Assembly (NCBI GenBank): GCA_025399215.1
Contig: MU621184.1
Location: 1 to 58,479, forward strand
Direction of reading: 5' to 3'
Source: Globomyces pollinis-pini
Lineage: Eukaryota > Chytridiomycota > Chytridiomycetes > Rhizophydiales > Globomycetaceae
DNA: 58,479 nt
The stretch's first letter is position 1; each line of letters opens with the position of its first letter. Under the pieces are notes generated by a model that did not search any database, was not told where the DNA came from, and saw only the letters and a program-made list of their open reading frames with translations. The translations under genes and the position numbers were made by a program. Below, in pieces: positions 19,368 to 52,769 of this stretch.

Positions 19368-21737
19368 CTATTCGATTTTTGTGATGTCCAAAGGTTTCCA
19401 AAACGACTCTCCAAAGCTAACCAATAATTCAGTTATGGTCTGGGTAAATTCGTCACTACCATGAACGAAGCACCGTTCGTCTCCTATCAGAGTATTGAAA
19501 ACAGGGTATAATGATGATTCCTGCAACATAAACTTATCAACATGATGAATTTTGATGTAGTCTGTAAATGCGCTTTGAATGTACTGGACTTCTTCAGAAA
19601 CCGGTGAAGGATTAGGTGATTGACTGCAGTGAATGAAACTAAGTCTAACTTGGTGAAATGGAGCAACACAATAGATAGGGAACACACCATTACAATCCTG
19701 TGTCACATTTCTTCCTAGACACCATCCATCCATTCGGTGTACTTGAACTTGGAGTACATCACCCTTAGTAACGGTGATTTCGGTTGTATTGATTGGTATA
19801 TAATTTTCTGCGGCCTAAAAATATAAGCTTAAGTTGATCTTACCATTATATCCACATTAATTGGCAAAAAGAGAGATATTGCAGCATTTACAAACTCTTG
19901 ATTCATTGGAAGATCCGAAAAAAAGAACAAATTTCCACTGGTACCTGATTTATTACTGATACCAGAGATTGCATCCATGACTCGAGATGAAGCCTGTTTG
20001 GTACCTGAAGATAGTTGTGAACGCGGCTTTTGCTGAAATTCGTTGTTTGCATCTGAATAATCACCAATTGCATGTGCCATATTTGTTGGAGCCTCTACTA
20101 ACGTATCAGATTGTCTGCTAGGTGAAGTCATTTCGGAAACAGAGGCTTTTGGTTTAATTGGAAAGGAATTTGATTGTCCAGTTTCGACTTGGTGACCAAC
20201 ATCATTATTCTGTTTTTTAAATCCAAATCCAATAAACTGCCATACACGAAACACTGCTGCTACACAAAATGCAACACAAATAGTGGCTCCAACTCCTATC
20301 AGCAACCATGAACCAAAGGATCCGGCTAATAAGAAACTTTCTGTTGTTGGTACTGGTGATGTGGATGTTGAAGGGGTTGGTGAGGCAGATGTGACTGGTC
20401 GATTCACAGTTGTCCCAAATCTAACATTTAATTGATCAACCACTTACTGAAATTTTTCTGGAGAGTATTTTGGTATCGATTTGATTGAATCTGGAATAGG
20501 CAGTGATAACTGATTTCCACCAAAATTCCTATAATTGAGTTATACCGTTATTGTTACATTTCCTGAACTTTCAGCATTTTACCAAGTTCAGATGGAATGG
20601 GACCCGTAAGAGTGTTTGTGCTCATGTCACTAACGTTAATGATATCAAATTACATTAGGTCCATATTCACTAGATTTCCAAGCGAAGTAGGAATACTACC
20701 CGATAATTTGTTGAAGGACAGATCCCTAAAATTAATGAATAGGGAATTTTACAAATTAGTCAAGTATGCTAGATTTCCTAATTCAGGTGGTATAGTGCCG
20801 GTCAATTGATTATTATTCAGAAACCTACGATAAGAAACAGAAGAGAGATACAATCTTTCGCATAAAGCTAATTGTCCAAGAGTTTCTGGTATTTTTCCCG
20901 TTACCGCATTATTCATAATAACACTACCTAATCAGTATATTAAACAATACTTACAATAACTGGACTTTTCGTAAATTTCCCAGTTCAGGGGGGATGGTAG
21001 TGAGCTTGTTGTACCCCAAATTGCTAACGAGTGAATCAATACAAAATTACAAGTTGATCAGATTTACAAGGTTTCCAATCGAGCTTGGAATTGGACCACT
21101 AAGTTCATTGTCATGTATTATTCTACAAAGTTAGCGCAAGAAATAAATACAGATTTTCCAAAGTGGTGATTTTCCCAATGGACGCTGGAAGCGATCCAGT
21201 TAGTTTATTAATGTTCAGTAGTAAACTCTTCAATTGATTACAAGCGCTTAAGTCTGGAATAGTTCCCGTCAATGAATTATTAGTAAAGTTTCTATAAAGA
21301 TTAAATTTGATATGAATGAGTATTTACATTTCCGTTAAACTTGTCAATTGTGCAAAGTCTGAAGAAATCTGTCCCTTTAGTCCCCTATTGGGCAAATTTC
21401 TAGTCCGGTTAGAAAGACAAATCATTGTACATTGAAATAATTTCATTCTGAGCATTGCATTTAATTTGTGATTGACAGCAAGCTATAGTACTATTTGCAT
21501 TCCCAGTCAATTTCTGATAAATAGATTTCGTGAATAAATTACAGTTTGGAGAATCCGTCATAAGTTAAAATCCAGTGTGCACAATTTGTATGGCTTTATA
21601 TTGAAGGCTTCTACACAATAAGTGTTTCCAATCTACACCATTGATAACAAGCTTCCTCTTCATGATTTTTGCAAGGGATAAAATAAAGAATAAACTAGGA
21701 CTAGAACCAAACCCAAGAATTGCTGTTTGTCTACCAT
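19368..21737 (-). CDS. LRR receptor-like protein: signal peptide, plant-type LRRs, TM segment, cytoplasmic SH3 domain
   Basis: From 5' to 3' there is a likely signal sequence (QQFLGLVLVLVYSLFY), a cysteine-containing cap (STIACCQSQIKCNAQNEII), and about nine LRRs of the LxGxIPxxLGxLxxL type (SLTGTIPDLSACNQL, ELSGPIPSSIGNL, TTIPPELGNLRKV, NTLTGPIPSELGKM). Then come a Thr/Ser/Pro stalk and a membrane span (SWLLIGVGATICVAFCVAAV). A polar linker is followed by an SH3 domain (ITVTKGDVLQVQVHRMDGWC, GVFPIYCVAPF) and the end DITKIE. LRRs of this type followed by TM and SH3 are known from zoosporic fungi. Ligand and partners are unknown. Most LRRs have their own 72-nt exon. The first exons (about 21540-21737) are unresolved because my reading of the signal exon does not join in frame to the cap. 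Confidence 0.72.
20558..21291 (-). repeat. One-LRR-per-exon array
   Basis: Exons at 21151-21291 (141 nt, two repeats), 21051-21122, 20955-21023, 20852-20923, 20753-20824, 20654-20725 and 20558-20629 are 72 nt long, except one of 69 nt and the double one. Introns between them are 24-31 nt. Each exon holds one leucine-rich repeat cut at the same repeat position. Confidence 0.8.
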
Positions 21738-36162: not shown

Positions 36163-39100
36163 ATGATATCAGAGAAAAACATAGAAGCAGCACCAATGTC
36201 TATAGCGATACCACCAGTTCAGACTAATTCAGATCAGAACTATCAGCAACGAGAATTAATTACTGATCCATCCTTTTTATTCGGTGATACTATTCCTCCA
36301 ACTGATTCGGAAATGGAAACCATGCTGGAATTGATGATGGTTGGTTCATATCAGTCTCTTATTATCATATAGGAAGATGTAAACTTGACAGAGGATAAGA
36401 AGCGTGTGATGCGTAAATTACCTAAAGATCGGAAATGGTTAATGCTCGTTCAAAATCTATCTGAGCGATATCGCATTGGACCTCAAGAAGTACTTGCAGA
36501 GATCCAAGAAATCCAGAAGCTGAAGGATGGTCCTAAACCTAAATTATTGCTAAACCTGGAAGTATCATTAAGGTCAAGACCAATTCGTTGGATAAGCGAA
36601 TTCATTGAGCATGGAGGATTAGCTGTAATGCTGGATAATTTAAATGAACTGGAAGAAAATGGAAGGTAAAATTCAAATGATACTGATCTGACAGTCACAA
36701 TGATATCGAGGAACTATATATAAAATGTTTAAAATCATTCATGAATAACAAGGTATATATGGTAAAGTTCATCATGTTAGATTGGTTTAGCAGCCATCTT
36801 AGACACTACAGGTGCCTTAAATGTAATTGCACTATCTTTAAGGTCATCATCATCCCGGACAAAGGCATTAGTATTGGAAATATTTGGAGCAGTTTGTTTA
36901 CTTCCAGGTGGACATTCACCAGTTCTTGATGCAATGGATTCATTAAGTCAAATAGCATCCACTAGATTTAGAATGGAAATAGTATTGTATAGCTTATGGC
37001 AGAGCTGTAAAGGAGATTCACAGGCAGAAAAAGAACTCCAGGTAGCTAGCATGTCTTTTATAAATGCGGTCATATGTGGTGGACCTGGTACTGAACGCGA
37101 ATTCCGGTTGCATATGAGATGGGAGCTCATTCAACTAGGAATCATTCAATTAATAGATGTATATCAATTTTGATTAATGTTAGAAAATCGGAAGCATAGA
37201 TAATGATCTATTGCAAACTCAAATTGACGTATTTTTGACAGGGATGGATTCTGATGAAACAGACATGTTCAAGGAAATGCAAACTGAACCAATTGATATA
37301 GAAGACATTAGCAAACTGCTTGCAACGCTTAGTAATGTGATGAAAGCATCTTCTTGTGAAGCACCCTTTGCGTCCATACTTCGACACATGATGATGTTGC
37401 CAGCAAATTCCTTTGAAAGGTATATCTTCTAATGGCTTACCTGAGAATGAAATACATGCTTGTGATTGACAAATTAGTCCAACAGTTAACACTTCAACGA
37501 AGTGGAGAAGACAGTGATCCTTCTGTTCTGCTAGCAAACATTGATATGAGCAAATTTATCGGTGATTTGAATAATGTCGAGTCTTTAAAAGAGCAAGAAG
37601 CACGTTATCAAAAACAATTAGAGAAATCTAAGAGATTAGAAAAAGAAATTGAAATGTTAACGAAAGAATCTGGTAGAAAAGAGAAATTAGAAGCAGCTGA
37701 ACTAAAAATTGTGGAATTGGAAAGAAAATTGGGGGCTCTTCAAGTAATATTTCTATAAGTTAAACGATAGCGATCAAGTACTTTATTATCACAAGCAAAT
37801 TCATTAGCACCTTCACCATATGGTAATTATATTCATATACTTAAAGTAGCTGGATTTGGTAATACCTTAAATTGCTGATAGTAGGAACCTCCACTTTGCC
37901 TTCAATGGGTAAGTCACTGTATTTTTTTATCTAAGGTGGTGGCCCTCCCCCTCCACCTCCACCTCCAATGATGGGTAATTATAATAGTATATGCAGCATT
38001 AATGCTAGGTGGTGGCCCTCCTCCTCCACCACCACCTCCAATGATGGGTAAAGTCTGCGTTTATTTATTGTAGGTGGTGGTCCTCCCCCTCCTCCTCCTC
38101 CTCCAATGATGGGTAATTTACTCATTAATTTCTAAAACCAGGCGGTCCTCCCCCACCACCACCTCCTCCAATGATGATGGGTAAAGATTGTTTGCTTACC
38201 ATAGGCGGTGGACCTCCTCCACCACCACCTCCCCCAATGATGGGTAATAGTTTTATGTCTAACGATTAGGTGGAAATTTTCCACCACCTCCTCCACCACC
38301 TCCAGGTATGTATTTTCGAAACAAGAACTCATAAGACTCTTTCCCACAATCTTGAACAACTGCTAAACTTCAGGTATGTCTGGACCTCCTCCACCAGGTA
38401 TCTCTTTGAAATTAACCTTTTAGGGATGGGTGGCCCTCCACCTACACCACCACCACCACCAGGTAAATTGGTTGTCAATAACTTAAAATGAGGAATGGGA
38501 GGTTTTGGTGGACCTCCACCACCTCCACCTCCACCAGGTATTTGGATTAGTTTAATGTGAATTAGGAATGGGAGGATTTGGCGGACCTCCACCACCTCCA
38601 CCACCGCCTGGTATTTAGAGTAGTTTTAATATGATTTAGGAATGGGGGGATATGGCGGACCTCCACCACCTCCACCACCGCCTGGTATTTAGAGTAGTTT
38701 TAAAATGATTTAGGAATGGGAGGATTTGGCGGGCCTCCACCTCCACCACCACCACCAGGTAAATTGCCCGTGAAATACTTAATATTAGGAATGGGAGGAT
38801 TTGGTGGACCCCCTCCCCCACCACCACCACCAGGTATTATTTTATTTGGGTTGATTTTATTAGGAATGGGTGGACCACCTCCTCCTCCACCACCACCAGG
38901 TACACCATTTCTATGTAACGATTTTAGGAATGGGTGGACCTCCTCCCCCTCCACCACCAGGTTAATTCCAACTCCTAATGTTAGGCTTTGGTGGACCCCC
39001 TCCACCTCCTCCTCCAGGTTTGATGCCTTTAGATTTATGTATAGGAATGGGCGGACCTCCTCCTCCACCACCTCCAGGTTTGTTACCTTTGAATATTGAA

Positions 39101-41368
39101 AATAGGAATGGGTGGACCTCCTCCTCCACCACCTCCAGGAATGGGAGGACCACCAGGACCTCCTCCGCCGCCAGGTATTTAGCATTTAATATCTTATGTT
39201 GTAGGAATGGGACCACCACCTCCACCTTTTCCAGGTATTGGTTCATTCTCTAAGTTCAGGTGGCCCTCCAGCACCAGCAGCATGGGCCCCAGTAGCAGCT
39301 CCTGTAGCACAATCAAAACCACTTAATCTATCTTCAAAACCACTCAAGTCTTTCAATTGGGTTAAACTGCCACCAATGAAAGTAAAGGAAACAATTTGGG
39401 CGGATTTGGATGACGCTGATGTACATAAGAAATTAAAAGGAACAGCATATAAAGCTTTTGAGGATCTATTTGCAGCAAAGGAAACAAAAGTTGCCGAAGT
39501 GGTGACAGATAAAGTTGATAACAGTATGTCGAAATTTTATAAATTTTCTAGCTCCAAAAGAAATAACTTTCTTGGATTCAAAAAGAACACAAAATATTAG
39601 TATTGATTGATAAATATTAAAAAATAGATGTGATGCTAAAGGCTATCAAACTAGATCCACAAGCAATTAAAAAAGCCATTTTACAAGTTGATTTACAAGT
39701 TCTACCACAATTTGTTTTGACAGAATTACTAAAGCTAGTCCCAACTGACGAAGATATTGCCTCATGTGGGCAATATGCAAAAGATGTTGAAAATTTAGCG
39801 ACTGCAGAACGATTTATGTATGAGATTTCAGAAATTACTCGATATGAACAAAAATTAAAAGCAATGTTTTTCAAGGTAACGTTTGCTGATTATCAAGAAG
39901 ATGCCGAATCTCAAATAAATGCATTGAAAAAAGCCAGTGCCGATGTGATAAAGAGTACCAAGTTTAAAGAGTTATTAAAGGTAAGCTTGAAAATACTAAT
40001 TAAAGATTATTCTCGCACTTGGAAATTATTTGAATGCAGGGCAAAGAGGTGGTGCTTATGGTTTTAAACTGGGTAGTATTCTAAAGGTTAACTGTTTCTG
40101 ATTCTCAATATTTAGATGATTGATACGAAGTCCACAATCCAAGCTAGAAAACACACACTTCTTCACTATTTAACAGATTTATTGGACCAAGAATTTCCCC
40201 ATGTAGCAAACTTTCATGAGGAACTTTCGTCAGTTGAAGCAGGAGCAAAAGGTATTTATTGTTTCACCTGAGTTATTTCATTTAGCTGGCATTCCAGCTA
40301 TTCGTATGGCATTGGTGGCTATTCGCGATAACTTGAAATCAATCAAAAAGCTACTTGACACAATGGAAGAAGATGCAAAAAAGAAAACAGTTGAAAAGAA
40401 GCCTTCCAACTCATCCATGATATCATCTACTAGTAACACAACGACATCTACAGCTCTGAATGCTGGGTTCATCGATGTGATGCAAACATTTTATGACGAA
40501 TCGATGAAGTTTTATGAAACACAAGATGAAAAGTTTAAAGCTGCAGAAAAAGATTTTGAGGTCGCATGTAATTTGTATGGTGAAGATCCTAAAACTGCTA
40601 CTCCTGAGGAATTTTTTGGAACGTTTGCTGGATTTTCTCAAGCATTTATAGCTGCCAAAGCAGAAAATGAGTTGGCTTTAGCAAAGGATTTAGCTGAAAA
40701 GAAGAAAGAGAATGCAAAGAAGGTTAATATGTTTTTTTTTAAATGATTAGGAACAAGAAGAGAAAAAGAAGGCGAAAAAAGATGACGGAGCTACTCCAGT
40801 CACACCTTCGGTGTCAAGTCCTACCAAAGAAACAGCGACACCATTGCCACCTGACGCGAAAGATGGTGGATTGGATGATCTTATATCTTCCATTAGGACA
40901 GGAAAGGCTTTTGGGACAAATGATGGTCCTGGAGATAGAAGACAACGAAGGCAAAAGGATCCTAACGGAAAGAATGCTACAGATAAAGTGGATGAAAAGA
41001 AAGAAAAAGAAAAAACGTTCCAAAACCAAGAGCAAGGTGCTGTTGGAAGGTTAAGAAGACAAGACCCACAATCGGGATTAGCAAGAAATCCGTCCAAAAA
41101 AGAAGTAATTAAGGAAGACTCTAGTTCAATATCTCTGAGTAGTACAAAAAAAGACACGGCCAAACGAGATCTAAACCCAAAAGAAGAAGGTTTAACCATT
41201 ACTCTGAATCAAACCCCCAAAAAGGCGTTCCAAGATCCACTCGAAAAGAAAAAATCAGCCAAAAAGGAAACTCCTCAGTCAAAGCTAAAATCTACTGGTT
41301 TATTGAAAGAGTCTGCTCAAGACGTTAGAAACCGATTTGAAGCGATTGGAAAAGATCAGGCGAAATAA
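36163..41368 (+). CDS. Diaphanous-related formin (GBD/FH3, coiled coil, FH1, FH2, DAD)
   Basis: Nucleates and elongates unbranched actin filaments. The order is complete. GBD/FH3: [80 protein letters not shown]. Coiled coil: [22 protein letters not shown]1: poly-proline, 37936-39234. FH2: [81 protein letters not shown] followed by basic RRQRRQ. GBD plus DAD means it should be autoinhibited and opened by a Rho GTPase. The start ATG is at 36163. All introns are short; FH1 is split into many microexons. Several upstream FH3 junctions were inferred but not each checked. Confidence 0.9.
37936..39234 (+). repeat. FH1 microexon array: 19 phase-1 proline-rich cassette exons
   Basis: Exons: 37936-37974, 38009-38047, 38074-38112, 38142-38180, 38205-38243, 38270-38305, 38374-38397, 38424-38462, 38493-38537, 38566-38610, 38640-38684, 38714-38758, 38789-38833, 38864-38899, 38928-38960, 38985-39017, 39045-39077, 39106-39174, 39205-39234. 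All lengths are multiples of three (24-69 nt; classes of 39, 45 and 33). Each begins two bases into a Gly codon and ends on the first base of the next. Introns are GT-AG, 24-34 nt, except 38306-38373 (68 nt). Early modules encode [14 protein letters not shown], later ones [15 protein letters not shown]. Confidence 0.88.
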
Positions 41369-44829: not shown

Positions 44830-47800
44830 CTACTTTTTTTTGGCCATTGGAATTCCTAGTGCGTGGACTTGTAAAGGCTTCGAATCGACTTGAGGTGCTG
44901 GTTTCTTCCAACCGCGATGAGTTCTTGGAATGGAAGCATTTCCATCTATGATTGTACCCAACGAATCAGGATTCAAACTACCACTTTCGGATTTGCCTAG
45001 TTTCTTGTTAGAGAACTGTGGTTGGAACCGCTGTTGAGCAGTGCCTTTGACTGCGAGATTTTGATTAGAAATACGTGTCTCAATATCGTTTGACGCTTTG
45101 TCTGAGTACTTTTGCTTTCTAATATTCGCCAATTCCAGTCGAGCATTTTCCAACTCTTTTTCTAATCTCAAGATTTTCATCTGTGCTTCCATTTCCAGGA
45201 TTTTTCCTTTGTGTACACTGACAGGAACACCATTACTTGAAGTATTTGTTGGTCCAGATGTTTTAGCTGAGCCTCTTGAAGAAACAACAAGATTTTCAGT
45301 TGCGTCCAAAACTGCTTTACCTGCAGCGCGAAGTCTCATTTGAGTAGTGGTTTCATTTGTAGTAGTGGTTACAGCAGATGCCGTCAATAAATGTGCAGTT
45401 GCAGATGATATGTTCTTTGCACATACCATCACCATTTCTATTGGCGATTCATTCTTGGCATAGTTGTTTGCAACGTCACAAAGAGCATCAGTTGTATGTA
45501 CTATTTCTTTGGAAGCGGTGACGATTCCTTGGTTAAAGGTATTGGAGTCTGGATGGTTTGAAGCGGTGACTTCCCTTTGAACTGCAGTTGCAAACTTCAC
45601 CAAAATTGCAGTAGCAGATGCGATGTTTTGAGCAGCATTCAATACTTGATCTTGGAATGCATTGTCAGCAGCAGAAGTATTCACTCTGTCAATTGGTTTC
45701 AATTGAGCCATCTTTTTAGCCGCATTTTCAATACTGCTGGTAATACTCATCAAATCACGCTCCGCTATCACGTTGGGGTCGTTAGGATCTGCGTAACCTT
45801 GAGGTAACAATTCAGAAACCATCTTTTCAGTGACCGAAATTGCTTGAGTAATGTCTTTGACTGAAGCATTCAAATATTGTTTCATGTTAGCGAGTTGATT
45901 AGAGTCTTGAGCTTGCTGGATTGCTTGAACCAACTGCTTGCATTTTTGTCCAATACTAGATATTGACGAAATCGTATTTTCAGCCTTTTCTTTTGGAGCA
46001 TTTACAACAGCTGCCTTACCAGCACGGTAAAGAGCATCGATAGCATTTCTTAATTGATTTAGTGAAGCCATTGCTTCTTCAGGTTTATCCCCGCCTATTT
46101 TGTGAACAAGAGTAAAGACAGATGCTCCCAACTGATTTGATAAAAGTACTATTTCAGCTGGGAGGGATGTTCCTAGCGCTGGTAGATCCTTATCGTTTAG
46201 AATTTTATCTGAATCTTCAATACAAGATATAGTATTTTGGTATGTCATAGAACTGATACCAACTTGATCATTAACTTTGTTCACCTTTTCTACCAGCTGA
46301 GAAACAACTTTTACTTGCTCTTCAATCTTGTTGGTAAGTAATCCATTTTGATCGTTGGATTTTCCAGCGGAATTTTGAGTAGCCTCAATCAAGCCTTTCA
46401 TTGCTTCACCAATATCTACTGCGGTTGATAGCAGCTCTTGTTGCATTTCATAATCAACGCTAGAAATTGCCATAGCCGCTTGAGTAGATTTGACCTTTAA
46501 ATCACGATACGCATCTCCTGCGGATTGAACTAATGTTCCCATGGCCTCTTGAGTTAATTGAGGAGAATTTAAGAATGTTTTAAAGACATCCGAAAGCGTT
46601 TGAGCGGATTCCAAAAGGGCATCTTTGTGTTGAGGGAAAGAATCTGTTTCAGATATTGGATTCAACTGTCTAGCCTCGGCAAACATAATAGTGCTGTTGA
46701 ATTCAGTTAACATAACATCGAGATCTGATGTTACTTTTGCACATGCAGTGACAACAGGTGCAGATTGTTTAGCAAGTGCGACGAGTTCATGCTTTTGGGT
46801 TTCCAACTCCTTGATGTTTTGGTTCAGTTTATTTCTATTAGTTGCATCAATAGATCCTTTTAAACTGGTTTGATTTAATGTGGATATTGCTCTCATAGCT
46901 GATCCTCCCAATTCTTTCACCATGGCAGACAATTTCTGTTTTAAATCATCATCATCAGTTTCGTGAATAAGTACACCAGCATTGGTAGTAATTTCCTCGT
47001 ATTGCTTAGTTATCTTTAGCGCAATAGGTCCGTATTCTTCTATGCTCTTAGCCTCCAGTGCTTGCTCAAGCTCAACTTGTAGCTGTTTAGTTGACGTTTC
47101 CAAACTAGCCGATACCGTAGCAAGTGGGGCGTTGATAACCGTCTTTGTACCATTTGAATCAAAGTCATTGATTATTGCTTCCATCTTCATATTCGCTTCC
47201 AAAAATTCTGGTACGCTAGCAATCGATTCTTGTAATTTTCCATGAGTGGAAACTATCAATTTATCAATGGCTTCGGATTGCATTTCAAGTTGTAAATGAC
47301 TATAATCATTTGGGTCAGATATATCAGTCTTTAACGTTCGTATAAATTCTTCTAACAAGTCTCCCAAAGTTTTGATTGAAATTAAAAAGTCTATTTGATC
47401 TTCGTTTTTCACATTTGAGTATGCTGAAAGTGCATTTTTGGTAGTCTAAAGTAAGAAAAATTTCATTTTACAATTTCAAAGGTGTCTGGAAAATCTTCAA
47501 CGTAATGAAGTAGAGTTTGTACATTTCCTCTGGATGCTGTAAATGCCCCTCCTGTAATGCTGTTCAGTGACTTGAGTGTTTCGGAAACTTTCAGTAGTTC
47601 ATCACCTTTGCTTTTGTCAACTACTGTTTCTCCGTTTGGAGGATTCGCTAAAAGACTTTCAAGTTTTTCGTTTACAGCATGATTTGCACGTCTTACTCTA
47701 GCAATCGCAGCTTCGGATTCAGACAGGCCAGGTTCGCTTGACTTTAAAAGAGTCAACAAAGCCTTCCCTTTATCTCCTAATGTTGAAACTTCTTTCAGTA

Positions 47801-50800
47801 ATTCTGACTTCAAGTTATTGTTATTTGGCGAAGAGCACAGTTCCTGTACCAAGAATACTATTTTCGAAGATTCCATGAGCATTGCATTACAACTTTCAAT
47901 GATAGGAAGTTGTAAACTGGCACCTTTATCACCCAGTTTGGAAGACTGACCGGACAAACCAGGAGATTTCAATAAATTCTCGTAATTGTTTAACTGATTG
48001 AGAATATTGGTAGCTGGAACAGTAATTTCTTCAAATCTATTTGGTGAAGCACTTTTCATAGTGGAAACGACCTTTGATGTACTAATAGCTAATTCATTCA
48101 CTAATGTGGCAAATTGGAGTCGAAGAACTTCATCGAGGTTTGGATCTTGGCTAGCTGCTTTACTAGCTGCACAAACAACTGCGCATTGTTTTGATATCAA
48201 TGCTACATCATTCAGCGTTCCCTTGGAATCTTTATAGTTCGAAATTAAGTCTCGCACAGCCAATCTACTCTCTTTAATAGCAATAGCAGTTTTTTCGTCA
48301 TGCAAACGCCCTTTCACAGCTGGTTGAGTAGTTGGGTCACTGATACCAAGTATATGCCCACCATCTATAGCACTATTGATTAATTCTTGTACCGCCGATG
48401 CTAATTTGGACACCTCTGCTGAAATGGTTTCTGGATCACCTGAGGATACACATAACTTCAAGGCATGTCCATTTAATCGATGTAAAGAAGTTTGAGCTAA
48501 ATAATTGACATCTGAATAAGTGACTTGATTTAACCGTGGCTGGTTGACTTCCGAAATGACATTGGAAATATCATTCAGAATTTGAGTAGCCTTGTTACAA
48601 TCATCATATCCAACTTTAGATATGGAAAACAGGCCAAGTAGTTCATCAACCGTTTCACTAACTGATTTTGCAGCATTTACTAGTTGCCCACGATTTCCAG
48701 ATGCTTCACTATCAATATATGATGTTTGAAGGGTGTGTAGAAATTGGTTACACTCTAATCCTACATGCTGAACTGCTGATAAAACGTGGTTGGACTCTTC
48801 ATTTTTAGGTAAAGCGGCTGAGAGGTCGATTAACTTTCCGAACGATTGTTCAAGGCTGTTGATTTTTTCTTTCATAGCTTTTGTATCACCATGTGAATTG
48901 TTTACAAGAGCTTGCGCTGCAATAGAGAGCTGAGCGGCAGCATCTACAATCAATCTGTGAGAGTCAAGTGTGTCATTATCATTTGATAATTTAGTTGGGC
49001 TTGCTTCTGCAGTTGTTGACGTAGCAGTTTGTAATGGAGTCTCCAACTGCTTTTCTTCAATAGTTACATTAGCAGTTTCTACAGTTAAATCCATTTGATC
49101 AGTAATTTGTCTAATTTTATCCATGACTGCCAACATTGCTCTTTGCCCAGGTAGGTTTGCTAGCAGTAAGTTCATCTCTTTAGACGTTTGATCATGCAGA
49201 CTGTAAAACTCATCATCATCGATTTCGCGATTGCTAATGCTAGCTACCCCTTTAATAAGATTGGTTAAGGCATCACCCAATCGTGCCGATGACTTCTTAA
49301 TGTCATCACATGCTTGATCATCATCCAGTTGTTTCGATATGCAGTTCATAAGTAATTGAATATGCTGTAATTCTGTAACTGCATCCGTGACACCTAAACG
49401 TGCACCAAATGAGTCCTGGAAAGAAGTCGCGTCATGAATTTGCGCCAAACAATTGAAAAACTGTCTAGCATGTTCAGTCACTTCTTTCTCTGCCTCATCG
49501 ATGCTCATTTGAACAGCCGATCCATCTTGGTTACGACTTTGTAAACTATTCAAAGCTGCAGCTAATTCTTCATCATCAAACATTTTCTCTGCTTCCCCAA
49601 GCAAATTTTTTAGATTTTCAAGTTCTTGAACCAATTGATTGACATTCATTTGTAATTGCTGTTTGCCAAACTCATCTCCAATAGATGTTGAAGCAGTTTG
49701 TGCAGCTTCAGTCAAGTTTTCAACAGGAACAATAAATTCTTTAGCGGTTTGGATAAATTTGAATCGTGTAGCATAATCGAATGGGTTCTTTTTGGTAGCA
49801 TTAATAGCTTTCACTGATTTAGGGATTTTTTCAGTCACTCGTTTACCAGATTTAATCAAATTCAATTGAGCATTTCGGTCTTTGTTTGTATTGCCAGTCT
49901 GCCTTGAAGTGAAAATGACTTGATTTGAACTTGAAATAGTGCCCTTGAAAGCTTGCACTAAACTTCGGAGGATGTTTGATCGGATAAATGGTCCGCAAAT
50001 CTCCTGATTCTTACTTCGAATTTGGTCAATCACATCCACCAAATCAGCTTTGGCTTGATCACTGCTAGAGTTCGATATAACACCTCGAGTATTAGCTACC
50101 ATTGCAGCAATAAGTTCTGAAAGCATTCGGGCTTCGTCTTGAAGATTGAGACCACCTTCTTCGTCAGATAATTGTGATGCTTTCAACTTCAATACTTCCA
50201 CTAATCGAGTACCATTCACTGTTAATCCTTTAGCAGATGCAAATAACTCTTCACGATTATCAATCTTTTCAACGACATCATTTGATTCCAGTTCAATCTG
50301 ATCATGGTATGTTTCAATCTCATAATCTAAACTATGATCAATATTACGAGCCTTTTCAACCAAGTATGCTAAAGCATCTTCAGTGTCCGCCACTGCTTTT
50401 TGCAAGGCCTCCGCTAGTTCTTGATCAGGACAATGGACGCATAAGTTTTCAAGTGCAACAGCTCGGTCTCGCATCAAAATAGCAGTTTCAACCATCTGTT
50501 CTTTACAAATTGGATCAGCAATACAAGGCGCCATCACAGCAGTGCAAGTAGATAGAATGCCACCAGTACCAGAAATAGTTGTCAATTCATTTGACATTTT
50601 CTTTTTCATATCATTATCCGTTAATGATTTACCAACTGCTTGCCCTGCTACAGTTAATGCTGCTAATGCTTGTCCAACTTCTTCTACTGCACCTATCAAT
50701 TCACTCTGTACCAAATCAGATACATCTAAATGATCTATTTTTGATAAAAGTGAAGATGCAGTTATGGCTACTTTTGATGCTGAAGAATGCATATCAGTTA

Positions 50801-52769
50801 GCGTTAAATGCCCGGTGATAATAGGTAATACTTCGTTCAAAAAGCCACATAAGGCATCTACCATTGCTTTGCCAGCATTAATTAAATCATCCTGTGCTTC
50901 GTCATCATTGGTGTTGAGGCCACACAGCACTCTGAGGGATTGAGTAGCTTGCCCAGAAGAGCTTAAAATCATGGATATTTTTTGACCAATCAATGGATAA
51001 TTCATTTTTTCCTTATCTCCATCGGCTTCTAATAACAGGGCTGCAATAGAGGCTAAAATTCCAGATATCAATGATGCTAGTGCTTCCGAGTTTATATCCT
51101 GCATTTCGTCACGCCAAGCAATAGCGGACGGATCATTCGAAGTTGTGGGAAGAGGGATAGGAACGAGTAAATCACGCGAAGAAGCGGATAATTGAGCAAT
51201 AGCAGCCTTGATTTGTTCAATTATAATCTCTTGATTTTCCAAAGTTTCCATATCCTCTGCAATTTGTCCTTTAGTTTTCTTTCCTTGATCTGCCCCATAC
51301 CCGCCTTTAGGGCCTGCATTGGAAGATACCTGCTTGGCTACAGCTCTTGATGCCACATGTGCTACGTTGTTTGATTTCCCTGGTGTTACGTAATCCTCCA
51401 CCACTGCCTGTTCTTCCATCTTTGGAGGTGGTGCAGCGGTTGCCAACTGTGTACGTTTCTTGATTGAAATTGCAATATAACCTGCAATCAATCTTGATAT
51501 CTCTTCTCCTTCAGTGGTCTCTACTTGATAGTAAGAATCCGCATGATCACCAAAATCCAATGTAAAACTATTTATTAGTACGGTTTGTGATTACTTTCGA
51601 GGGGTAGCTGCCCATCGACGTAACTGCGTTAGTTTCCATTCTTGCATAATCGCTTTTGTATCCATATTCATTCTCACCACCGAATTCTTTGTCACACCCA
51701 AGAATACCATTTCTTGTTTCTTTTTTTTCGCCTTATCAGCCAGTTCCTAAACATTACAATATTTTATCCTGACCTTGACGAGAAAAAAAGATGTCCCGTA
51801 TATTTTCAAAGATCTGATCAACTGCACATACCGAAACTTTGCATTAAGTTCTGTAGTTCCTTTCAACATGCTATGCTCCTTATAGATCAACTTTTCCAAA
51901 TCCTTATTTTTTTGGTACTCTGGCCCAACAAAATCTTTCATTCTAACACATGAACGAAAATTCAAAACAATACTTTATAAAGCCAAGCTTATGTTTTTCG
52001 GGATCTTGATTTCCATATTTGATTTGCATTTCAATTCCTCCAAATTGCGCAGCCTCTTCGAATGTACATGGATATTTCCCATTTAAAATCATTTCACGGG
52101 CTTGATTGTACATGAGAACCAATTGAATAGGATCATTACGATCCACAACATGATCCGTTACAAAGAATTTCTTTTTCAGAATCACTGCATCTTCTTCTGT
52201 TAACCCTTGATCGCGTAATGTTTTGTCTGCAATTAACCAACCCTCTGAAGTTAATATGTAATATTATTTACTAGCATCAGTAGTATTGTCCTTTTTCTTT
52301 TTATCTTTCTTGGTGACTTCAACAGTCTCATCTCTTGATAACGAATATTCTTCATGATTTGCCAATCCTATGTTGATAAATATCTAAAGATCATATACCA
52401 ATTTTATCACAAATCACTTCCACAATTGCCTTTACATTCGTACTTTCATCGATTAAAATATTCTTTACATTCTCATCCAAAGTTTTGACTTTTAATACTC
52501 TATGTTTCTTTCTAAATTCTAGAGTATCTCCATATTTTAATTCATAATGTCCTAGCATTTTATTGGGTGCTAACCAAGTCCCAGATTCTTTTAATAATAA
52601 TCCATGACCCATACCACCTTCTCCATAATTGTATTTTGATCGAATATCTTTACATATTTCAATCACATACATATCAGATGGATACTATTTTTAGTAGTTG
52701 ATTATTACTTGACATGTTTTTACACTTCCTAAATCAACTAGAAATATTTTCAATGATAAAGATGCCATT
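44830..52769 (-). CDS. Talin (FERM head, rod, C-terminal I/LWEQ-type actin-binding module)
   Basis: The start exon MASLSLKIFLVDLGSVKTCQ resembles F0 of talin. F1/F2 follow: GHGLLLKESGTWLAPNKMLG, KFFVTDHVVDRNDPIQLVLM, NQAREMILNGKYPCTFEEAA, FVGPEYQKNKDLEKLIYKEH. The F3/PTB lobe has EMVFLGVTKNSVVRMNMDTK, LTQLRRWAATPRK and DSYYQVETTEGEEISRLIAG. A very long exon (47472-51560) and a second (44830-47445), joined by intron 47446-47471, encode about 2,200 residues of alpha-helical rod. The end has MEAQMKILRLEKELENARLE, the dimerisation helix of talin and Hip1R. A basic tail (RTHRGWKKPAPQ) replaces the villin headpiece of amoebozoan talins. Talin links membranes or adhesion receptors to actin. Junctions between 51560 and 52391 were only partly verified. 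Confidence 0.92.

Follow-up and report, generated by a model that had tools for sequence, protein, structure and literature searches.

In collagen and elastin, animal matrix proteins with longer introns, repeat modules correspond to small exons that are neutral to the frame. Leucine-rich repeat (LRR) genes with one repeat per exon form another such group; their exons encode a folded solenoid, whereas the FH1 modules of formins are presumably disordered. For the Schistosoma micro-exon genes (MEGs), tandem exons of 3-81 bp, mostly multiples of three, are described together with alternative splicing (PMC10526429). Here, a Diaphanous-type formin gene of the chytrid Globomyces pollinis-pini was analyzed. 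The gene finder places it at positions 36163-41368 on the forward strand of the window, the whole 58,479-nt stretch of contig MU621184.1, which is contig C95 within an assembly of 18.5 Mb. The FH1 region of this gene is divided into a tandem array of frame-neutral microexons, with nearly one intron per proline module. The array belongs with the tandem frame-neutral exon arrays, here in a formin, and it is probably spliced constitutively and changed mainly at the DNA level.

The Globomyces array resembles the Schistosoma MEGs in having tandem short exons, all 21 microexons being multiples of three. The MEGs differ in having introns of 0.1-5 kb, in encoding secreted proteins and in producing several proteins per gene (PMC10526429); the Globomyces introns have 24-34 nt, with one of 68 nt, in a gene for a formin. 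The long introns of the MEGs are thus missing from the array, and the protein has its domains arranged as in an intracellular formin. An LRR gene in the same window is itself of the kind with about one repeat per exon. A literature search by title and abstract opening, of incomplete coverage, turned up no formin with an FH1 microexon layout, which agrees with the preliminary description of this DNA, whose author knew of none.

Organization of the FH1 exon array

By hand parsing, the region 37936-39234 consists of 19 exons of 24-69 nt, all with lengths divisible by three, and 18 GT-AG introns lie between them; one measures 68 nt, and the other 17 measure 24-34 nt. This layout, with phase 1 on both sides of each exon, matches the one first described. 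The series begins upstream of 37936 with two extra phase 1-1 exons that lack a proline tract, one of 9 nt (37850-37858, AGF) and one of 24 nt (37885-37908, GTSTLPSM), giving 21 microexons and 22 introns at 37823-39259. A 52-nt exon (37771-37822), present in both the hand parsing and the gene model, lies immediately upstream. Every array junction is in phase 1, and 21 of the 22 junctions split a glycine codon as G/GN; the first one (intron 37823-37849) splits an alanine codon. The frame would be kept on loss of any single FH1 exon, as had been proposed, since all 19 are multiples of three with phase 1 at both ends.

FH1 exons 1 to 5 (37936-37974, 38009-38047, 38074-38112, 38142-38180, and 38205-38243) each have 39 nt and encode 13 residues. 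Exon 6 (38270-38305; 36 nt, 12 residues) contains the switch from MM-type to GM-type modules, and is followed by the 68-nt intron (38306-38373; hand parsing and gene model), the sole long one in the array. Exon 7 (38374-38397) has 24 nt and encodes GMSGPPPP; exon 8 (38424-38462) has 39 nt and encodes 13 residues; exon 9 (38493-38537) has 45 nt and encodes 15 residues. Exons 10 (38566-38610) and 11 (38640-38684) are followed by exons 12 (38714-38758) and 13 (38789-38833), both of 45 nt, and by exon 14 (38864-38899; 36 nt, 12 residues). Exons 15, 16, and 17 (38928-38960, 38985-39017, and 39045-39077) have 33 nt and 11 residues each. The last two are exon 18 (39106-39174; 69 nt) and exon 19 (39205-39234; 30 nt, 10 residues).

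A single proline tract is found in 18 of the 19 FH1 exons, including one with only PPPP (exon 7) and one with PPPTPPPPP; the remaining exon, 39106-39174, holds two tracts, and the boundary between them has a splice-type site but no intron. The earlier statement that each exon is one FH1 module therefore stands for most of the array, but not for the two-tract exon, and exon 7 fits it poorly. The intron position also differs between blocks: the first-block introns sit after MM, whereas the second-block introns directly follow the prolines. An additional exon hidden inside the 68-nt intron was considered and rejected; the only GTs, at bases 1 and 5, precede its first AG, so that an internal AG-GT exon is impossible.

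Support for the array introns

Five of the 22 array introns (37823-37849, 38181-38204, 38759-38788, 38834-38863, and 39018-39044) are multiples of three and free of stops, so the reading frame alone cannot prove their splicing. The unspliced array stretch as a whole contains stops in all three forward-strand frames. A splice-aware gene finder was first seeded with the array introns and then retrained on non-array introns (432 in the last round), with the formin gene still included in its codon table; it recovered 21 of the 22 array introns. Because this first form had been seeded with the array introns, a second run was started from generic random seeds, and the entire formin gene was excluded from its training. 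The second run recovered 10 of the 22 array introns untrained, then 20, 20, 21, and 21 in later rounds. The one array intron missed in both runs is 38181-38204 (24 nt), one of the five stop-free multiples of three. In 20 decoys with shuffled intron letters, the mean score was 308 (maximum 328), compared with 452 for the real sequence, and no array intron was recovered.

The deposited protein (P0001, BC833DRAFT_649016) has 1430 residues and gave a 100% match to the spliced formin in the protein search. It equals the hand model letter for letter once the introns 37823-37849, 38181-38204, and 39018-39044 are read through; the additions, of 9, 8, and 9 residues, fall between modules or immediately ahead of them. 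The deposited gene model thus also contains 19 of the 22 array introns. By every sequence test run, the predicted exon layout is real.

Genomic background of the array

The background comprised 258 kb, i.e. the window and 20 stretches of 10 kb (three picked for formins), as annotated by our own gene finder, which makes errors, including some predicted exons of 0-8 nt. It contained 55 genes with a score of at least 60, 15 in the window and 40 outside. Introns elsewhere in this sample have a median length of 28 nt, with a 5-95% range of 24-37 nt (n = 441; 24-44 nt in an independent run). Tiny introns were therefore rejected as the novelty of this locus. The 5' splice-site scores are higher in the array than in the sample (5.24 vs 4.29, Mann-Whitney p = 0.0005), part of this excess being due to exon ends imposed by the Pro-Gly and Met-Gly codons; the 3' scores are similar (3.94 vs 3.75, p = 0.39). 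The array splice sites are not weak; they are as strong as those of the sample or stronger.

The distinctive features of the array are intron density and register, with nearly one intron per proline module. Intron density per kb of coding sequence is 28 in the array vs 3.4 elsewhere. The run of same-phase exons that are multiples of three and no longer than 150 nt comprises 20 exons in the gene-finder model and 21 by hand. The next-longest run among the 55 genes has 9 exons, in the LRR gene of the same window; for the 40 genes located outside the window, the maximum is 4.

Splicing and evolution of the array

The reading that we consider probable is a constitutively spliced FH1 array with one intron per module. 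The tandem frame-neutral microexons would encode the FH1 arm, each contributing roughly one proline tract, and the introns of 24-34 nt would be removed singly by intron definition. A single main mRNA would result, with about 19 tracts of at least five prolines, from which the FH2 dimer would receive profilin-actin. The genome encodes profilin, as seen from above-cut-off matches on C247 and C356. The number of tracts might shift mainly at the DNA level, by gain or loss of exon-plus-intron units of about 57-75 bp. The uniform phase would then come from the reuse of one boundary type (CCAG/G or ATGG/G), not from selection for cassette splicing. Even if its splicing is constitutive, the array may serve as a natural experiment on intron gain, with similar modules carrying introns at almost all boundaries in one gene and none in two others.

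One step of this kind is clear from the sequence comparison. Likeness between exons 10 and 11 reaches 96%, and the introns that follow them match at all but 1 of 29 bases, which points to a recent duplication of an exon-plus-intron unit at 38566-38713, with copies 38566-38639 and 38640-38713. The intron just before this pair is also related (p = 0.00075), and likely shares descent with the duplicated ones. The earlier suggestion that copy number can change is thus borne out by at least one such event. Adjacent exons elsewhere in the array share silent third bases (0.542 vs 0.408 in shuffles, reached by 0 of 1000; 17 pairs, the recent pair excluded). Among the introns, with the 68-nt one excluded, five of 210 pairs were alike at p < 0.01 vs 2.1 expected. 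The 19 adjacent intron pairs average 0.188 in likeness; when the two pairs with p < 0.001 are set aside, the other 17 average 0.125, vs 0.123 for the control. The intron-likeness test has little power at the silent-site divergence observed, according to simulation. Dating of the array by intron likeness was therefore abandoned, as there was no signal outside one block and the power was low. The pattern of exons and introns fits either old unit duplications with fast decay of the introns, or separate intron gains.

Several points weigh against the constitutive reading. We infer constitutive splicing from the sequence itself. The three introns kept in the deposited protein could reflect real retention, and an excess of stop-free introns with lengths divisible by three (given below) hints weakly at tolerance of retention. 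In addition, unit duplication does not extend demonstrably to the rest of the array, because 17 of the 19 adjacent intron pairs are at the control level.

Among the alternatives, parallel intron gain survives best, although we hold it to be possible rather than probable. It proposes that an intron-free proline array came first, and that about one intron per module was then gained at the proto-splice sites CCAG/G and ATGG/G; as a rival on the history of the array, it is compatible with constitutive splicing. The control-level likeness of most adjacent introns, found although adjacent exons keep their silent-site likeness, is consistent with such gains, as is the vacant splice-type site within exon 39106-39174. 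The different intron positions in the first and second blocks, after MM and directly after the prolines, imply at least two intron origins or a shift. Moreover, two further proline arrays of closely similar modules in this genome (described below) are free of introns. However, introns may simply diverge faster than exons, their likeness is hard to detect at the divergence observed, and at least one exon-plus-intron duplication is clear.

Tuning by intron retention appears unlikely. According to this explanation, some of the five stop-free array introns with lengths divisible by three are sometimes kept, with 8-10 extra residues between proline tracts. Three of the five are kept in the deposited protein, so either the deposited gene model treats tiny frame-neutral introns as coding sequence or retention is real. 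Hand counting gives 5 such introns among 22 in the array and 21 among 442 elsewhere (Fisher p = 0.005); the p value is 0.02 when only the DP-called introns of the array are counted (4 of 21), and 0.12 when the comparison is limited to phase-1 introns (12 of 149). This excess was rejected as proof of retention, since it is too weak over the range of controls, and introns of this kind may be missed by the gene finder wherever they occur. A metagenome relative (P0002) has GTAIVNQG between two modules, which reads by eye like a kept 21-nt intron. On the other side, gene callers can read through stop-free introns of this kind, as our own gene finder did at 38181-38204, and the introns following exons 12 and 13 (38759-38788 and 38834-38863) are spliced in the deposited protein.

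Slightly less credible is tuning by exon cassettes, in which regulated skipping or inclusion would set the number of profilin-binding tracts and hence the elongation rate. The 19 frame-neutral FH1 exons are in keeping with it, and the Schistosoma MEGs pair short exons, mostly multiples of three, with alternative splicing (PMC10526429). Also in its favor, replacement of two proline tracts in Bni1p slowed elongation (PMC11773026). However, if a single exon were skipped, the resulting intron would measure 62-130 nt (median 95), and such introns are rare: only 10 of the 441 others in the sample have at least 77 nt, and 3 fall within 77-125 nt. The splice sites of the array are not weak, and its uniform phase is expected from repetition alone. 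Introns of so few nucleotides are likely recognized by intron definition, which favors retention over skipping as an error or as an option. Nor are introns needed for in-frame gain or loss of modules, as the two intron-free arrays of this genome show. The regulated cassette splicing proposed in the preliminary description is thus unsupported, the array introns being of ordinary size for the sample, and tuning by exon skipping is disfavored on these sequence grounds.

Splicing-tuned isoforms of some kind are possible but unsupported. A splicing-set ruler for FH1, whose isoforms would differ in the microexons joined or in which of the five frame-neutral introns are kept, and hence in the number and spacing of profilin-binding tracts, for example between zoospore and thallus, is about as improbable as retention tuning. 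If such isoforms exist, the FH1 tract number would be a natural variable within one gene, and the dependence of elongation rate on tract count would be directly testable. Finally, that the gaps of the array are a broken or artefactual repeat tract rather than introns is extremely improbable and was ruled out: introns this short are unusual among fungi, but the gap lengths are mixed modulo 3 and yet the frame is restored at every join, GT-AG with genome-like splice sites is found throughout, the shuffled decoys fail, the introns are recovered without training on the formin gene, and an FH2 follows the array.

Domain organization of the formin

The hand-corrected model of the gene predicts a coding sequence with 35 exons and 1404 residues; the gene finder alone gives 34 exons. 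The N-terminal exons (36163-37743) encode Drf_GBD and Drf_FH3 domains by Pfam, followed by a stretch that looks coiled-coil-like by eye. The GTPase-binding domain (PF06371) was matched with an E-value of 3.9e-34, and FH3 (PF06367) with 7.3e-33. The FH1 region was assigned by its proline-rich sequence, with 19 tracts of at least five prolines ahead of FH2. The FH2 domain (PF02181, E = 6.8e-85; top PDB match DAAM1, 2j1d, E = 1.1e-64) is encoded by six exons: 39260-39523, 39552-39599, 39628-39980, 40006-40086, 40116-40251, and 40286-40722. In the last exon (40751-41368) there is a 22-residue DAD-like segment, and a 17-residue sequence aligns with the C-terminal GEFDDLVSALRSGEVF of DAAM1 (2j1d); no DAD profile matched the formin protein in the Pfam search, and the label DAD follows the general motif rule. 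With GBD, FH3, FH1, and FH2 all found in the predicted protein, the gene product is a Diaphanous/DAAM-like chytrid formin, as judged from sequence.

Other formins and proline-rich proteins

Three further formins were found in the genome, on contigs C86, C180, and C68. In the C86 formin, FH1 lies inside one exon of 804 nt; in the C180 formin, FH1 lies in one exon, with a single phase-1 intron at a PPPPG/GM boundary; the C68 formin has a short proline tract and no intron. Two proteins encoded on C42 each have a similar array of 12-residue modules within one exon, the first with 8 tracts in 1608 nt and the second with 10 tracts in 1881 nt; similar modules are therefore repeated without introns elsewhere in the genome. 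No intron per module was found in the three paralogous formins and the two C42 proline arrays examined. These places belong to a wider set: a pattern of six CCN-like codons gave 174 matches, of which 100 were listed, and beyond the formins the two C42 arrays were examined for introns. Pattern matches on C3, C5, C13, C17, C45, C51, C70, C74, C81, and C83 lie outside this intron check, so genome-wide uniqueness of the formin array is not claimed.

The C68 formin (locus L011, C68:9001-19000, reverse strand) has one short proline tract and, by eye, a PTEN-like N-terminal part. A PTEN-formin has been reported in a chytrid, in a paper whose main text mentions neither exons nor introns (PMC5628938). 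The two C42 genes (L029, C42:5001-8000, and L030, C42:15501-19500; reverse strand) look related, and a WH2-like stretch follows the array by eye. Pfam gave no family for the last exon of either gene at a cut-off of E = 0.01. Against the PDB, L030 was matched best by Inverted formin-2 (E = 0.0045), over residues 95-192, a range that holds the proline array, and no identity is assigned to the two proteins.

The DAAM-like Diaphanous formins of other chytrids (Batrachochytrium, Spizellomyces, Entophlyctis, and others) likewise show the order GBD-FH3-FH1-FH2 in most of the listed models, with GMGG/MMGG modules. Compared as proteins only, they have fewer tracts. Among the relatives P0002-P0030, the FH2 anchor is readable in 28 of 29 (all but P0027), with 0-13 tracts of at least five prolines vs 19 in Globomyces; among P0031-P0120, four matched the FH2 anchor, and the counts of 3-11 tracts cover those four. 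The low counts are unreliable because several models look misannotated in FH1. P0006 and P0003 have FH1 stretches that appear to be in the wrong frame, and P0019 carries the insert GKKLIFMKIPDHVPTIG; these suggest annotation errors in other chytrids. Spliced models in the wrong frame and unspliced models look alike, so no conclusion on the gene structure of the orthologues is drawn.

Neighbouring genes

A second module-per-exon array is found in the window, in the LRR gene at 19368-21561 on the reverse strand. Nine consecutive phase-2 exons of this gene are multiples of three, six of them of 72 nt with about one repeat each; a 141-nt exon holds two repeats. The introns of this gene are not alike beyond chance. 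A talin-like gene with I/LWEQ, Talin_R4, and Talin_middle domains is located at 44830-52768 on the reverse strand, a few kb from the formin.

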